Positions 2,545 to 33,747 of a stretch of 34,426 nucleotides of DNA are shown piece after piece (the stretch's first letter is position 1; each line of letters begins with the position of its first letter). Location: contig JAPKXR010000102.1 of NCBI GenBank assembly GCA_026394715.1, positions 1-34,426 of the forward strand. The letters run 5' to 3'. Under the pieces are notes generated by a model. That model was not told where the DNA came from. It was given only the letters and a program-made list of their open reading frames with translations, and did not search any database. A program made the position numbers and the translations under genes. The stretch comes from Methanomicrobiales archaeon. GTDB lineage: Archaea; Halobacteriota; Methanomicrobia; Methanomicrobiales; Methanospirillaceae.

Positions 2545-4167
2545 TTAATTGTCCCCTGTTCCATTGTCCGCTGACAATGAGGTTTTCCAGGAAAGGACAA
2601 GATCCAATAACTCCTGGGGCGTTTCATAGGTGTTACTGACGACACCGAGGTATACCGACCCGGTATTTCCGTCCAATGAAATAGTATCTCCTTCCCGGAT
2701 AACCTGGCCACCCAGTTGACATTGGTTGTGAAATAGGTCAATCTCCAGGCCTGCACAATTTACGATACAGACCTTCCCCATATGGCGTGCAACGACTGCT
2801 GCATGCGAGGTACGTGCTCCTTTCGCGGTCAGCAACCCCGAAGCAGCCCGTATTCCCTCGATATCATCAGGTGATGCCGTTTCCCTGACCAGGACCACCG
2901 ATCCTGAAGAAACTTCATTTACTGCACGTTCAGTTGAAAATACCACACTTCCCGTCGCAACGCCCCCGGATGCAGATGTCCCTGTCGCAACCGGATAATC
3001 CATGGTGGAAACACGCCGGACCTTGATCGATTCGAGATTGAGACCTTCTACCTGGGATAATGCGGTATCCGGCGTAATGATTCCTTCCCGCCACATATCA
3101 ATAGCGATCCTGATTGCAGACAGGGGGGAGCGTTTCCCATTACGGGTTTGGAGGAGGTAGAGCTTTCCCTCCTGGACGGTAAATTCCAGGTCCTGCATAT
3201 CATTAAAATGTGATTCAACCATTTGCCCTATATGCCTGAGCTCCTCGTAAACAGAGGGCATTGATCTCTTTAATTCACTCTGTATCGTAGCAGAATGGTT
3301 CCCGGATACTACATCTTCCCCCTGTGCCCCAAACTTAAAATCGATGACCGGTTCATTCTCTCCACTCCAGGGATTCCGGGTAAACGCAACTCCGGCACCT
3401 GAATTCAGGCCCATATTCCCAAATACCATCGCCTGTATGGTAATGGCGGTACCACGCAGGTTTTTTACCGGGTACATCCGGCGGAATGAATCAGCCCTTG
3501 GATTTGTCCATGAATGGAGCACGGCAACGGAAGAGATCTGGAGCTGTGTTTTCACATCCTCGGGGAATTCTAACTTTTCAGCGGAAAAAAAGGTCCGCTG
3601 ATATTGAAGGGCCAGTCTCTTTAGGCTTCCCGAATCCATTTCCACCACATCATCTATCCCCTCCGCTTCCATTATTTCTGACAGTATGACCCTGTACGGG
3701 TCAGGGTTCTGGCGGAAAACGATCTCCGCCATATTCTCAAAGAGGCGCCGGTAGGAATCCCAGGCAAACCGGGGGTTGCCGGTTAAAAAAACCAGGCCTC
3801 GTATCGTCTCATGGTTTAGTCCCACGTTCAGGATAGTATCCATAATACCCGGCATCGATACCGGGGCACCAGACCGAACAGATACAAGGAGAGGTTTCCT
3901 TGCACTTCCATACTGGAGACCTGTTGCTTGTTCGAGGTACGAGATACCTTTCTCAAGGAGTTCCGGGAGATAGGATGGGGCCTTCATCCCGTTTTTATAA
4001 TAATCTTCACATATTGACACATCTAGCGCAAAACCCGGTGGTATAGGGATACCAAGCGAGGACATGATCCCAAGCCCTGCAGCCTTGCTGCCAAAATCTT
4101 CAGGAGGTATATCAGCCCTTATTCCAGGCCCGAAAAACACGATGCGTGCGGATAAGTCTTTTGTCAT
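2545..4167 (-). CDS. Pyruvate phosphate dikinase-like protein: ATP-binding domain plus phosphohistidine swivelling domain, no PEP/pyruvate TIM barrel
   Basis: ORF track begins at GTG 4242, but ATG 4167 (MTKDLSARIVFFGPG...) is the better start because it follows the stop of the frame-corrected upstream gene. GSKAAGLGIM..G.PIPPGFAL, SVRSGAPVSMPGIMDTILNVGLN and GARTSHAAVVARHMGKVCIVNC are PPDK-type motifs. The protein ends soon after the swivel domain. Confidence 0.85.
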   Translation of the reverse strand: MTKDLSARIVFFGPGIRADIPPEDFGSKAAGLGIMSSLGIPIPPGFALDVSICEDYYKNGMKAPSYLPELLEKGISYLEQATGLQYGSARKPLLVSVRSGAPVSMPGIMDTILNVGLNHETIRGLVFLTGNPRFAWDSYRRLFENMAEIVFRQNPDPYRVILSEIMEAEGIDDVVEMDSGSLKRLALQYQRTFFSAEKLEFPEDVKTQLQISSVAVLHSWTNPRADSFRRMYPVKNLRGTAITIQAMVFGNMGLNSGAGVAFTRNPWSGENEPVIDFKFGAQGEDVVSGNHSATIQSELKRSMPSVYEELRHIGQMVESHFNDMQDLEFTVQEGKLYLLQTRNGKRSPLSAIRIAIDMWREGIITPDTALSQVEGLNLESIKVRRVSTMDYPVATGTSASGGVATGSVVFSTERAVNEVSSGSVVLVRETASPDDIEGIRAASGLLTAKGARTSHAAVVARHMGKVCIVNCAGLEIDLFHNQCQLGGQVIREGDTISLDGNTGSVYLGVVSNTYETPQELLDLVLSWKTSLSADNGTGDN

Positions 4168-4169
4168 GA

Positions 4170-5593
4170 TTACCAGTTCAGGCCCTCGAGGATATTGTTC
4201 CTCAATCCGAATGCGGCTTTCATCAGGGAATTTGTTGAACACTCAATAATACGTGCTATCTCGAAGAATACCCGTAATTCCTTGTAATCAGTTGTCTCTG
4301 CAAGGATTATCCTCTCTGCATTTCTGAGCGCGTCATCGCTTCCCGTTCCATGCTGATCACACCATCGATTGCCCGGATAAAGTCCTGCATCTCCTCACGG
4401 CTGTATCCTTTGTGCACGTACTGGGAAGAAATAACCGCTTTCAAATATTCCTGGCTACCTTTGACCGCAATCTCCCCGAGCATTACGAGAGCGTGCAACA
4501 TCTTTTCGGAATGGGTACTTTTTGGGACCAGAGTCGAAAAGAAACATGCCTCTTCAAGAAAATCGAGTGCATCATCTGCCACGTTTATTAAATCAGTATA
4601 TTGCCGGGCAGCTTCGAAGCGAAGTGAAAGCGACCGTACTTTTGAGACGAGACTGTCGGCCTCACGCTCCCATATTTTTGCACGTCTTGCCGTCCTCTCT
4701 GTGAATTGATTGATCTCCTTCCTCTGTATATGGAGTAAGGCATCCCGGAGTGACATGGCGACTTCAACCGTCAGGGTTGCGTGTTGTTCGCAAATTTCCA
4801 TCAAATTCTCTTGGGCCGAATGGAAATACCTGAGCAATTCTGCTTTAATTTCATCCTGGATAAGTAACAGGGAGTGATGTGCAAGCAGTCCGGTCGTCGC
4901 TGCATTAAAAACCCAACTGAAATACTCAATGGTCTTCTCCCTCCCAAGTATCTGGTACAGGGGTTCGCCATATCGTAAGGGGATCCTGGCCGCCATTTCA
5001 AGACCATCATAGACCAGCTTTTCTCCACCGACCTGGAGGAACCCGACATGCCCGACTTCATGTTCCGCTGCCCACCTGAGCACCGTAACGCAGTCTTTAT
5101 TTGGCAGAAAACTCATGAGCCGTTTCCTTGCGCGGTTCCAGTCAATTAAAAAGACGATCCTTGATCCAAGAAATTCTAGAAATTTCCTCTGTTCTTCCTC
5201 GTCCTTCGCATGGTAACTTCCGATCGAAAGGTGAAAGAGTCTCTTTTCGAAGTTCTCATCCCCTTTCCTGGAGCGGGTATCTTCCCAGGTCACATCCCAG
5301 GAATCAAAAAGGGCCTGGAAAAACTGCAGGCGGGGCATATGGATATCGGTATACGTGATATTGATCTCTGTCGGCCCGGCATGGATGACAAGGACATGCG
5401 CATCAGTTAACCCGATATCATTCTGGAGGACAAGCTGGCCATTTGACCTCGTGGCCGTTGTGCCAAGGCCGGGGTGGTCGAATTTCAACGGAGCGGTCCT
5501 GTTCAGACCCGACATGAAAGCCAGGAATAGGTGTTTGTCCAGCTCCTGGAGGTTGTAGGTCATCGCACCGGGAATATTTTCAGTGGATATCAT
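4170..5593 (-). pseudogene. PhoU/DUF47-like helical protein with an additional N-terminal domain; apparent 1-nt frameshift near 4337-4342. The uninterrupted ORF is 4307..5593.
   Basis: The 428-aa ORF ends ...SMEREAMTRSEMQRG*. The neighbouring frame continues from 4337 as DDALRNAERIILAETTDYKELRVFFEIARIIECSTNSLMKAAFGLRNNILEGLNW* (stop 4170-4172), giving a typical PhoU-like EREADD... helix. Start overlaps the upstream gene's stop (ATGA). Confidence 0.75.
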
Positions 5594-6051
5594 TTTTGGA
5601 GCCGGTTCAACGACTTATGCATGTCCATCAGGAGGAGATGGAGGCTGTCCGGCCCACCTGGGTCACCCCTGGTGATATCCGCAATCGCACTGCCGCTTAT
5701 CTCCTCACCCTGAGGGTTGGGCAATTCATCCAGAAGCTTTTTCGTCCTCTTATCGAAGTCTTCCGCTTCAGGTAGGCCACCCTTGGCAATGGGGAGCTGC
5801 ATCGCAAGGAAGCAACGTTTAACCTCACCGAGTATAGTATCGAGCTCCGGCACCCGGTACATTTGAGGCCCGGTCTTTTTTGACCCTGCTACCACACGAT
5901 CGAAACAGTCAGAACCGATGCCGGCAACTTCACGTTCCCTCGAAAGATTAGTGTCTTTAAGGTCTGGAAGATCTGCATGTGCCTGTGCCGCCTGGAGCAG
6001 GGTGAAAAAATATTTTGCCTGGTCATTCGCAGTTAGCCCGTCGTTTACCAT
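5590..6051 (-). CDS. Small uncharacterised protein, first gene of the PPDK-like/PhoU-like cassette
   Basis: 153-aa ORF with 4-nt ATGA overlap with the downstream gene. Coding-like sequence also continues upstream in frame (see findings), so the start is uncertain. Confidence 0.65.
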   Translation of the reverse strand: MVNDGLTANDQAKYFFTLLQAAQAHADLPDLKDTNLSREREVAGIGSDCFDRVVAGSKKTGPQMYRVPELDTILGEVKRCFLAMQLPIAKGGLPEAEDFDKRTKKLLDELPNPQGEEISGSAIADITRGDPGGPDSLHLLLMDMHKSLNRLQK

Positions 6052-6367
6052 TCCAGGTAAGAGAAGGCCGGTTTCGCCTAGTTCACGTATGATACTGAAT
6101 TTCCCTACAATAATTCATTCCAGCGTGATGCACGGTAACAATAACTGACGGTGAGGCCCAGATATTCTGTACCTATATTTTCCGCTTCCCTACAATATTC
6201 TAGCGGTCACCCGGTACTGGAATTTATTCATCCAACTGCTGCCAGGTGCTCCTGGATGAAAATATTCAGGTCTTTTCACAAGCCAATCCACATCCTGGAC
6301 AGGACTCCGGGAGGAACTCCGAAAAAATGTACTATGAGGGATTTGGTGAATAAAAAATATGGGTGGT

Positions 6368-6610
6368 TTATAGTGTGACGGGGGGTTTCTGGTCCATGGC
6401 GGAATATACTTCACGGAACAGGCTGCGTGTCTCAAGTCCCTCTTCCCTAGACATTTTTTGTATGGCGAAACCAACGTGAATCAGAACAAATTCCCCTACC
6501 TCAACATCAACAAGGTCAAGGCGTATCTCCTGTTTTAAATCACCAAAATCAACGACTCCAATATTTCCTTCCTTAATTTCAATTACTTCAGCGGGAATTG
6601 CAATACACAC
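6368..6610 (-). CDS. hypC: Hydrogenase assembly chaperone HypC/HupF
   Basis: MCIAIPAEVIEI...GVVDFGDLKQEIRLDLVDVEVGEFVLIHVGFAIQKMSREEG is the classic HypC signature. Confidence 0.95.
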   Translation of the reverse strand: MCIAIPAEVIEIKEGNIGVVDFGDLKQEIRLDLVDVEVGEFVLIHVGFAIQKMSREEGLETRSLFREVYSAMDQKPPVTL

Positions 6611-8112: not shown

Positions 8113-10047
8113 CTAACAGGACGAATACATCCCGGATCCAACGATATAGTCATTCCCGTCACTGCCCTTTGCATACTGAAAATATGCGGATTTCTTAAAT
8201 ATTCCCGGCTCTGCCGGGTTTGCATAGATATAATCTACCCAGCCTGTTCGGTTTTCCAGTGCCCGGTTCACCATCTGGTCCCTGAAGGGATTTCCCGCAA
8301 CGTCTGTCTTGCCTTTAAGGTTACTACCAACAGTGGATAATGTGTCCGCTTCAGCAACAAGTGTTACATTCCGATCATAAACATAGACATATAGTGCTCG
8401 ATTATCCTTGTCCCAGTAGGGGTGTTCCCCTTTATTGATACGGTTTAATGTTCCCTTAGCATCTTCTGATAAACGGGTTGCCGTGTATGAAACGAGCCCG
8501 ATTACCTGATCAGGCGGTATTGTTTCCTTTGCACACGAAATCCCGAGGTTCCGGTACATTATCTCGTCGTACTTCGTCACCCCGGTTTCATTCTTTTCAC
8601 TACGCACCGCAGTTATACCATCCTGGAACGCTTCCACAAGTGTATCAGGGGTATCAGGGCTGAATGCATAGTAAAAGTCAGCCGGCGGGAAGCGGTATAT
8701 TACTTCATACCGGTCAGGATCACCAGCAAAGATATCAAGGAAGTGTGCCCCTGTCATTTCTCCAGTCGCCCAGGCATCAATGGTACCGGACTCTAGCAGT
8801 GAGACCATCGCCGCACCATCATGACCTGTTACCAGTGAACTTTCAGGTATGCCGATATCTTTTAAGGAAGTGATTGAACTGGTATTTTCAATAATGCCTA
8901 ACCGGAGGGATTGCATGGCAGTCGAATTCTGAATGGTGAGATTGCGACTCCGTGTGGAAAATATCACGTTCCTGCTGCTTGCAAAAGGACCTGCCCATTT
9001 GAAGATCTTTTCCCGGTCCGGGGTGCGGACAACCGAAAACAGTACGGCCCTCGGTCCTTTTTTTGCCATCTCATATCCTTCTGACCAGGGGAGGAGAATG
9101 ACAGGGTTTTGTGTCAGGTTTGTACGGTAACCTGCCATGACTGCATCGAGGATCTCGATTGAAATGCCATGTAATTCATTATTGTCCCGGTAATTTAGCG
9201 GTGGAAATTCCTCGGTATAGTAATGCAGGGTGGAAAGTCCGAGTGAGGGAAAATAGTCAGCCCTGATACGTTCATACGTGCTCATTCCACCATTCAATGG
9301 CTTCTTTTGCAGGTCGTCTAATGAAAGTTGGAATGACCGGACAGTATCAGGAGAAGTCCCCCTGGAGAATGCATAATACAACCCGGTGGAGTTCAAGGTG
9401 TACACCGGGATGAAAATGCCCGCCCGCCCCGTTTCATGGCGGGACAGGTAATCGCCGGATAATTGTTCATATGCCCATAGATCGACGGCCCCGCTCTCAA
9501 GTGCATGTATTGCACCGGCCGTATCCGGATACGTGACGATCCGGGATTCAGCTACCCCGAGAGAACGGAGCTGGATGCCGGCCATATCGTCCTTGATCAC
9601 CGCAATTTTATAGTGTTCCAGGTCGTCTGGCATCTTCACCTCAATACCACTCCCCCTTGTTGCAAAAAGAACGGTATTAGCTGATTCAAATGGACCGACC
9701 CACTGGAATAATTGTTCCCGCTCAGGTAAACGGGATGTAGAAAACAAAACGACATCGGGTTCGTTGAGAGCTTTTTGGTACGCCTCGTTCCATGGGATTA
9801 CCGAAAAATCCCCTGGTGATGCGTCCCGGCCTGCGTTCCTTGCAGTTTCACGGATGAGATCTACGGCAAAGCCCTTTGCAGTACCATTTTCCAGGTAATT
9901 ATAGGGCGGTGACTGCTCAGTGAGATAGGTCAGAGGATGAACGCTGGATTTTTGTAAGGGGCCCGGTGCACTACACCCGGATAAAAAAATAAGCACCACC
10001 AGGAGAGCGCATAACAGGCAGACAGCAGATGATCTCGAAATTACCAT
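8113..10047 (-). CDS. Lipoprotein with two tandem SBP_bac_3-like solute-binding domains and a C-terminal single-cache (sCache_2-like) domain
   Basis: Lipobox LIFLSGC; two copies of (L/H)YxTEExPPLNYxxN...G(F/I)xxxxxxxxxx...PWxEgY; C-terminal SYTATRLSEDAKGTLNRINKGEHPYW...VYVYDRNVTLVAEAD...GSGMYSSC. Confidence 0.8.
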   Translation of the reverse strand: MVISRSSAVCLLCALLVVLIFLSGCSAPGPLQKSSVHPLTYLTEQSPPYNYLENGTAKGFAVDLIRETARNAGRDASPGDFSVIPWNEAYQKALNEPDVVLFSTSRLPEREQLFQWVGPFESANTVLFATRGSGIEVKMPDDLEHYKIAVIKDDMAGIQLRSLGVAESRIVTYPDTAGAIHALESGAVDLWAYEQLSGDYLSRHETGRAGIFIPVYTLNSTGLYYAFSRGTSPDTVRSFQLSLDDLQKKPLNGGMSTYERIRADYFPSLGLSTLHYYTEEFPPLNYRDNNELHGISIEILDAVMAGYRTNLTQNPVILLPWSEGYEMAKKGPRAVLFSVVRTPDREKIFKWAGPFASSRNVIFSTRSRNLTIQNSTAMQSLRLGIIENTSSITSLKDIGIPESSLVTGHDGAAMVSLLESGTIDAWATGEMTGAHFLDIFAGDPDRYEVIYRFPPADFYYAFSPDTPDTLVEAFQDGITAVRSEKNETGVTKYDEIMYRNLGISCAKETIPPDQVIGLVSYTATRLSEDAKGTLNRINKGEHPYWDKDNRALYVYVYDRNVTLVAEADTLSTVGSNLKGKTDVAGNPFRDQMVNRALENRTGWVDYIYANPAEPGIFKKSAYFQYAKGSDGNDYIVGSGMYSSC

Positions 10048-32063: not shown

Positions 32064-33747
32064 AAATTAGGCTGCCAAAAAATTAGGAAGTCACAAAATT
32101 TTTCACATCAGGAGACAGGGATAAGGTGTCGAGAATTCCTCGCTGTTTCTTACCGATTTCTGTAATTAGAAATTTTCCATCTGGCAGAACAAACCATCTG
32201 ATTTTCTCGAGTTCCAAGATTAGTCGAGAGAACGAACACTTTTTCAATAACCCAGTAGTCTGAAGTTGTCTCAGGATATGCATTCTGATAAGCAAACTGA
32301 GGAATGAAATGAACAGGAGCCCTAAGAGAGACTCGCGTTTCTTCACATTGATGGGCATAATCTCAAGATCATTTTTGATAATGTCAAATGCCATTTCAAC
32401 CAGTTCCCGGCTACGGTAGAGGGAGATGCACTCATCCCATCTGAAATCACCCTTATAAATAAGAATAAATAGTCCCATACTATTCACCCGTTGCGACACT
32501 GCATCTTCCTTTACAGTAATGACAAAACGATCATCCACAACATCCCATGAAAGATACGTTGAACACTTATCAGCATGCTTCAAAAAAATTGATGCTGGTT
32601 TCATCTTGGGCTTTAATTCAATTTTTTCAAGAGAAGTAATCACTTCCCGTAGTTTTTGGTAGAACCGTTCCCGGTCATCCTGTTCTCGTGAGGGGCTGTA
32701 ATACCCATAGCCCTTGAACTGTATGCCCTCAATGGTTAGGGATAATGGCTCGACAAATAAGGCCTTGTCATTGAAACTCTGGAGATTATTTATCCGCTTA
32801 ATAGTGCTCTGTATCGCTGATAGTGTCTGCTTCACCACTTTGAATGTACGTGATACAGGCATGATGAACGGGAGCTGATGTTTGGTCAGTGCCTTCAGGT
32901 TTGCTCCTGAACAGAACCCTCTGTCCATGATCAATGTCGATCCACTTATCCCCAGTGTTTCGATTTTTGTGAGAGTATTTTTCAAGGTTGATACATCCAC
33001 AATGCTTCCCGGATACATGTCATAAAAAATTGGAATTCCTCGTTCTTTATCCACAACAAGCGATACATTGACTTGGGGTAAACGGACACCATCCCGGTTG
33101 TGACCATATTCAAAGAATGATATTGCAGAAGTGTAAGAGGAGATCGATGTGATATCATAATAGAGTGTGTTGAGAGGAGAGAGATCCGTGATCAAATCCT
33201 GAAAAAATTTGAAGGGTATACCTTCTTGCCCAATTTTTACGAGCAAGTTACTAAGATATTGCGATGATAGGGGTGTGTCTGGGTATTTGGCAGAGAGGAT
33301 AGTTCCTTCATACCATGATCCAATCTGATTCATCGCTAAAGGTCGGAGCACCCTGTTAAAGGCCAGGGTTAAAACCGCATTAACTTCTTTTTCAGTAAGG
33401 GAATGACCAAGTTGATTTTTGAGATTGTATGCTTCTGCTGTTGCAAAGCAGGGAAGAAACTCCCCATAATTCAATGCCATCTTGGGCACTCCGGAAATTT
33501 CTCTCACTTTGACTGGTTTTCCATCCACAGATTTTCCCAAGTATTTGCTATGCTGTCGTGTTCTTTTTGAAGCTTTATCGTAGTAGTAGGTGATCTCATA
33601 CAGATAATCAATTCCTTTGATCTTTTTGGTCCTGATCACCGTTTTCATATAACAGTATAATTAGGCGGTCTACTATGTATACCTTTCTGGACTCCTTTTT
33701 AAAATTCAAATCCAAATATCAAAAATCTAATCTTGGCAGCCTAATTT
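32064..33747 (-). mobile_element. IS1634-like insertion sequence with perfect 15-bp terminal inverted repeats
   Basis: AAATTAGGCTGCCAA at 32064-32078 and TTGGCAGCCTAATTT at 33733-33747 flank a single transposase. Confidence 0.88.
32083..33648 (-). CDS. IS1634-family (IS4-superfamily, DDE) transposase
   Basis: DITSISSYT...GYNRDG-like GHNRDGVRLPQVNVSLVVDKERGIPIFYDMYPGSIVDVSTLKNTL; LIMDRGFCS; FRWDECISLYRSRELVEMAFDIIKNDL. Confidence 0.9.
   Translation of the reverse strand: MKTVIRTKKIKGIDYLYEITYYYDKASKRTRQHSKYLGKSVDGKPVKVREISGVPKMALNYGEFLPCFATAEAYNLKNQLGHSLTEKEVNAVLTLAFNRVLRPLAMNQIGSWYEGTILSAKYPDTPLSSQYLSNLLVKIGQEGIPFKFFQDLITDLSPLNTLYYDITSISSYTSAISFFEYGHNRDGVRLPQVNVSLVVDKERGIPIFYDMYPGSIVDVSTLKNTLTKIETLGISGSTLIMDRGFCSGANLKALTKHQLPFIMPVSRTFKVVKQTLSAIQSTIKRINNLQSFNDKALFVEPLSLTIEGIQFKGYGYYSPSREQDDRERFYQKLREVITSLEKIELKPKMKPASIFLKHADKCSTYLSWDVVDDRFVITVKEDAVSQRVNSMGLFILIYKGDFRWDECISLYRSRELVEMAFDIIKNDLEIMPINVKKRESLLGLLFISFLSLLIRMHILRQLQTTGLLKKCSFSRLILELEKIRWFVLPDGKFLITEIGKKQRGILDTLSLSPDVKNFVTS

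Follow-up and report, generated by a model that had tools for sequence, protein, structure and literature searches.

Pyruvate, phosphate dikinase (PPDK) forms a phosphohistidine from ATP, and its chemistry handles both Pi and PPi; PhoU proteins are regulators. A PPDK without the PEP/pyruvate barrel has been described as VadK, which autophosphorylates its catalytic histidine (His422) with ATP and Mg (PMC13400623). Here, we describe another barrel-less PPDK-like protein, encoded next to a PhoU-domain partner in a stretch of 34,426 nucleotides (the window) that represents contig JAPKXR010000102.1 of a Methanomicrobiales archaeon (assembly GCA_026394715.1). A literature search, with subscription literature mostly outside its scope, found no description of this pair.

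The PPDK-like gene (2545–4167, minus strand) is intact and encodes 540 amino acids, with its ATG at 4167 lying 2 bp past the stop codon of the partner gene. As proposed from the sequence alone, the protein carries the ATP-binding domain (PF01326, E 5e-40) and the swivel domain (PF00391, E 3e-20) with GARTSHAAVVARHMGK, and its C-terminus falls at the point at which the barrel of PPDK would start. The solved PPDK structures 1kbl and 1vbg align over residues 8–527, and a full archaeal PPDK is ~40% identical over ~500 residues. Against TIGR01828 the protein scores 541 bits over profile positions 18–524 of 865, which is below the cut-off of 843. The motifs GxKA, SVRSGAPVSMPG, GTA..QxMVFGN, SGxGV.FTR.P, QGEDVV.G, D.QD.EFT, LQ.R and RTSHAAVVAR are kept; all nucleotide-site and swivel motifs of PPDK are retained. 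Compared with full PPDK, we found just two near-fixed substitutions, Gly to Ala (position 29) and Glu to Asp (position 276), the Asp being present in 27/27 cassette proteins. Alignment to the PPDK structures places the predicted phospho-accepting histidine at H455 of RTSHAAVVAR (codon 2803–2805, minus strand), which is invariant in the family.

The sequence-only reading had pointed out that a barrel encoded by a separate subunit would make this an ordinary split PPDK or PEP synthase. Such an interpretation draws on the closeness of the protein to canonical PPDK (maize PPDK, E 6e-122) and on the fact that full PPDK and the cassette never occur together among 61 relatives. Full PPDK, with open frames of 920–1008 aa, was found in eight relatives, and the cassette in 0/8 of these; expressed in the other direction, full PPDK occurs in 0/21 cassette genomes vs 8/40 others, a difference that is suggestive only (Fisher p 0.04). 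However, the only two barrels of the window's genome sit in complete PEP synthases (758 and 816 aa, each with its own barrel), and no free-standing barrel gene was detected in this genome or in the cassette. The cassette proteins are, moreover, monophyletic across phyla and have a fixed non-barrel partner. An ordinary split enzyme with its barrel elsewhere is therefore largely refuted, and we regard it as very improbable.

In the phylogenetic tree, the PPDK-like proteins of the cassette fall into a single clade (bootstrap 100), apart from full PPDK and VadK, and the VadK-type proteins group on the other side of the tree, together with the full PPDKs. Since VadK-type proteins fall outside the cassette clade, the barrel of PPDK appears to have been lost at least twice, in the cassette apparently independently of VadK.

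The minus-strand open reading frames at 2545–4167, 4307–5593 and 5590–6051, which had been taken for a cassette of three genes, are all found in the window. The middle frame ends at 4307, and another frame carries on as ...DDALRNAERIILAETTDYKELRVFFEIARIIECSTNSLMKAAFGLRNNILEGLNW up to the stop TAA at 4170–4172, directly before the ATG at 4167; the stop previously proposed for a corrected middle gene is therefore right. The three-gene arrangement, however, did not survive the comparison with relatives, which have two genes. In a relative of the same genus, a 647-aa open reading frame (L024, the same locus as L004) encodes the small and the middle protein together with the corrected tail, and a tblastn comparison of this partner with the window gave three collinear blocks in three frames (74–87% identity). 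The middle protein was present in 21 of the 61 relatives, including the window's own genome; in the 20 others, the alignment ends at query residue 419–420, and most of them have an open frame of ~640–700 aa. The partner frame of the relatives is a single one of ~645–670 aa.

According to the DNA alignment, the partner gene (4170–6111, minus strand; one protein of ~648 aa in relatives) is broken in the window by two 1-base deletions. The A-run at 5592–5598 is one A short (CAAAAATGA vs CAGAAAATG), and restoring it joins the small and the middle frames; one base is also lacking at 4336–4340, at ~4338 (GC-GATGAC vs GCAGACGAG, that is, GC-GATG vs GCAGACG). The homologous start position, 6111, is ATT in the window and ATG in the relatives, and the first in-frame ATG of the window gene is at 6051. 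The ATGA-coupled junction at 5590–5593, which coincides with the deletion in the A-run at ~5593, and the separate small protein were not confirmed. The small protein is the N-terminus of the partner, and the cassette consists of two genes.

Two 1-base deletions and the loss of a start codon within one gene may mean that the system is being lost in the lineage of the window, leaving a pseudogene beside an intact PPDK-like gene; in the same contig, the overlapping pairs DapA/DapB and FtsJ/MoaA are intact distinct genes. On the other hand, the corrected partner gene shows a dN/dS of ~0.13 against its nearest relative, similar to intact pairs and indicative of purifying selection, and the gene is intact in two relatives of the same genus (G001 and G002). 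The low dN/dS implies that the breaks are either very recent or sequence errors. We consider decay a serious possibility, if somewhat short of an even chance; it concerns the window copy only and is compatible with any of the functional readings. Programmed frameshifting was also considered, and it is unsupported because both shift sites are absent from the relatives, whose genes read through.

Several further features of the window were recorded. A HypC/HupF gene (6368–6610, minus strand) lies upstream of the cassette, as it does in the same genus (L004:494–736), and is apparently functionally unrelated. The minus-strand gene at 8113–10047 encodes a 644-aa chain with two SBP_bac_3 stretches followed by a Cache domain, and a DDE transposase gene (32083–33648, minus strand) is located close to the end of the contig.

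The PPDK-like gene and its partner lie on the same strand in 67/67 testable loci, separated by −20 to +38 bp (median 5); 69 distinct loci were collected, and those including the DNA downstream of the partner were testable. The paired loci span archaea, Proteobacteria, Acidobacteria and Planctomycetes, and hence the co-conservation of the genes in relatives, on which the original proposal depended, is borne out. The trees of the two proteins are correlated (r 0.91, 61 loci), for which shared organismal history accounts in part. A genome-wide scan revealed 51 loci, chiefly in Methanomicrobiales, as well as in Methanoperedens and in bacterial MAGs labeled Proteobacteria, Rhodospirillales, Acetobacteraceae, Rhodocyclaceae, Granulicella, Planctomyces and Thermoleophilia. 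The MAG labels may be wrong, above all Thermoleophilia, whose sequence branches with the archaeal ones. In addition, Methylocella tundrae (WP_322847396/WP_322847397) and Aquabacterium olei (WP_109038593/WP_109038592) carry the cassette on plasmids; like Methanoculleus sp. FWC-SCC1, they are cultured hosts with an intact pair. Its spread is patchy: 21/394 genomes of the phylum, one of these with a divergent protein of G015 only, and 10/385 and 2/369 genomes of two bacterial classes. Long open reading frames that might have been natural fusions of both proteins (L085 and L086) proved to be other-frame extensions. Neither protein matches a PADLOC model, and we rejected the reading as a known anti-phage defense system.

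The PhoU/DUF47-like character previously assigned to the C-terminus of the middle gene (4170–4866, minus strand) was confirmed by both profile and structure comparison. PF01865 matched 8/17 partner members (best E 2.9e-6), and in Foldseek the C-terminus matched 3l39 (E 8.9e-5, TM 0.82 of target); together with 2iiu and 4q25, the TM values of 0.76–0.84 of target indicate the PhoU helical-bundle fold. The PhoU-type acidic motifs (E/D-xxx-D), which are predicted metal motifs, comprise D486, D513, D517, E520, E589 and D593 and are invariant in 43 sequences.

The N-terminal domain of the partner (~415 residues; 4867–6111, minus strand) matched neither a family nor a fold. The Pfam search of this domain gave nothing above chance, and the best match in a PDB sequence search was hemagglutinin HA2 with a meaningless E of 0.08. 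Its AlphaFold2 model is confident (pLDDT 87, pTM 0.79), and a Foldseek search of this model against the PDB gave no fold match (influenza PA, TM ~0.13, meaningless). We therefore rejected a relationship to influenza PA or hemagglutinin HA2. Over 43–47 archaeal and bacterial sequences, the residues D155, H158, D163, H165, H213, Q230, N231, D232, H239, D256, H258, R261, D324, N326, R329, K330 and H355 (L024 numbering) are invariant. So many invariant polar residues suggest an active site more than one lone phospho-accepting residue. The EHEVGH stretch pointed out in the sequence-only reading does contain HEVGH, but its first His is variable, and only G354 and H355 are conserved. As HExxH is not conserved, we discarded a zinc metallopeptidase (zincin) assignment. 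One genome (G015) encodes a solitary divergent relative of the N-domain (L101:3665–4669 on contig C33; 334 aa, hhalign probability 97%) without PhoU and with nearly all of the invariant residues, including the His/Asp set, lost, even though the two still match in sequence. No cassette PPDK-like gene occurs near it within the 9-kb stretch, and the genome has a full PPDK instead of the cassette.

Genes for PPK1, PPX or CHAD were located within ~8 kb of the cassette in 12/69 loci (L033, L035, L053, L054, L056, L057, L061, L062, L063, L065, L066 and L094), with domains checked for a selection. At about one such cluster per genome, 1–2% of loci would be expected by chance (binomial p ~1e-8 or less), the loci being phylogenetically non-independent. 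In L035, PPK1-PPX are upstream of and co-directional with the cassette; the order PPK1-CHAD-PPX-cassette, likewise co-directional, occurs in L061; PPX follows the cassette after a 3-bp gap in L062; and L065 and L094 have the order PPK1-CHAD-phosphoesterase-cassette. The polyphosphate genes are divergent in L054, L063 and L066 and convergent in L057. The remaining 57/69 loci have no polyphosphate gene in the available stretch, many contigs being short, so the link to polyphosphate rests on a subset. At the genome level, PPK1 occurs in 16/16 cassette genomes that are at least 90% complete vs 21/34 genomes without the cassette; in the window's genome, PPK1 and CHAD are on other contigs.

In two alphaproteobacterial genomes, the gene immediately upstream of the cassette encodes PstB (TIGR00972 equivalog; L135:8022–8846 and L087:2230–3072), and no other pst genes were recognized beside it. 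A PstB-like and a PhoU-AbrB-like gene also precede the cassette in L050 and L093. As separate observations, the phosphoesterase of L065 (4265–5779) and L094, located between CHAD and the cassette, is an unusual calcineurin-like protein fused to a Ppx/GppA domain III / HD domain and may be a polyphosphate-related phosphatase, and in a proteobacterial MAG, a gene for a P-type cation-transporting ATPase (L081:11633–14257) begins right after the cassette.

Overall, the pair looks like a phosphate-handling system and not like ordinary PEP metabolism. The general idea that a barrel-less phosphohistidine enzyme and a PhoU-like partner serve phosphate biology together is well supported, given the universal pairing and the polyphosphate/Pst neighborhood; what changed is the gene count, together with the standing of the small protein. 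We propose, with about even confidence, that the two proteins are a split dikinase that passes a phosphoryl group from its phosphohistidine to the partner and serves phosphate/polyphosphate homeostasis. The PPDK-like protein would bind ATP with its ATP-grasp domain and phosphorylate the swivel histidine, which we infer because this histidine is completely conserved and VadK has been shown to do so. With the PEP/pyruvate barrel lost, the swivel domain would dock on the obligate partner instead. The N-domain of the latter may supply the acceptor site through its invariant His/Asp/Asn/Arg/Lys set, and the phosphate would move to this domain or to a substrate that it holds. The PhoU domain, as a sensor or regulator, might tie the reaction to phosphate status. 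In favor of the split dikinase, we count the kept motifs, the end at the barrel boundary, the strict pairing, the correlated trees, the separate clade, the PhoU fold, the polyphosphate/PstB neighbors and the co-occurrence with PPK1, as well as the G015 relative, which has no PPDK-like neighbor and has lost the invariant residues. Against it, we count the broken window copy, as sequenced, and the presence of polyphosphate genes in a minority of loci.

As a special case of the split dikinase, whose confidence therefore overlaps with that of the general proposal, the phosphohistidine could donate phosphate to polyphosphate or take it up from there, so that chains would grow or be degraded in step with the ATP + Pi / AMP + PPi reaction. 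This would agree with the co-localization with PPK1, PPX, CHAD and PPK2, with the use of Pi and PPi already inherent in PPDK chemistry, and with PPK1 in every near-complete cassette genome of the order. Nevertheless, these genomes already have PPK1 and usually PPX, a neighborhood is not a substrate, and most loci have no polyphosphate gene in the available stretch; we consider this variant rather unlikely. It is equally doubtful that the pair is a new polyphosphate (or phosphate) phosphotransferase, in which PPDK-derived phosphohistidine chemistry would act on polyphosphate by means of a partner whose catalytic fold has not been seen before, connecting ATP/AMP/PPi with polyphosphate by another path than PPK1 and PPK2. 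The PPDK-like protein may also be a regulatory histidine kinase in the manner of VadK: after autophosphorylation, it would bind or phosphorylate the PhoU-like partner, or act on phosphate transport in this way, and so exert control with no turnover of a small molecule. PhoU family members are regulators, and PstB adjoins the cassette in L087 and L135; VadK itself has been reported as a regulatory kinase that binds enzymes of the methylcitrate cycle (PMC13400623). However, the cassette clade is apart from VadK, its members score under the NF004531 cut-off, and the many invariant polar residues of the partner N-domain look like an active site, so that a purely regulatory kinase seems possible but not probable.

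Such proteins currently carry annotations of two kinds, “pyruvate, phosphate dikinase” and “PEP/pyruvate-binding protein”, and either would imply an unlikely PEP-forming step. As a fixed two-protein unit of archaea and bacteria that combines a catalytic-looking domain with PhoU, the cassette is a testable candidate for a link between ATP and phosphate/polyphosphate storage. Alongside VadK, it also provides a second, apparently independent example of a PPDK that has lost its barrel.

In comparison with the known systems, the cassette protein shares with PPDK (TIGR01828; EC 2.7.9.1) the nucleotide-site motifs and the phosphohistidine motif RTSHAAVVAR, but PPDK has ~870–960 aa with a C-terminal barrel (PF02896), which is absent from the 540-aa protein. 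VadK (Rv1127c of Mycobacterium tuberculosis; NF004531/PRK05878) is likewise PPDK-derived, with ATP-grasp and a swivel domain bearing the catalytic His and no barrel. However, its relatives are without ~60 residues of the N-terminal half that the cassette proteins have; two cassette members score 414 and 400 bits against the NF004531 cut-off of 456, compared with 664 for a VadK-type protein; and the cassette clade, with a support of 100, is separate. No PhoU-domain partner appears among the neighbors seen of VadK-type genes or in the VadK paper. Rifampin phosphotransferase and other swivel-domain dikinases are generally known to combine ATP-grasp and a His swivel with an unrelated acceptor-binding module in place of the barrel (see also PMC4844700); unlike in rifampin phosphotransferase, the acceptor module proposed here is a separate protein and has no recognized relation to the RIF-binding domain. 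Finally, the C-terminal ~230 residues of the partner share fold and acidic motifs with PhoU/DUF47 (PF01865, TIGR00153), but in contrast to these regulators, the partner has the ~415-residue N-domain in front and is linked to a dikinase instead of a Pit transporter.
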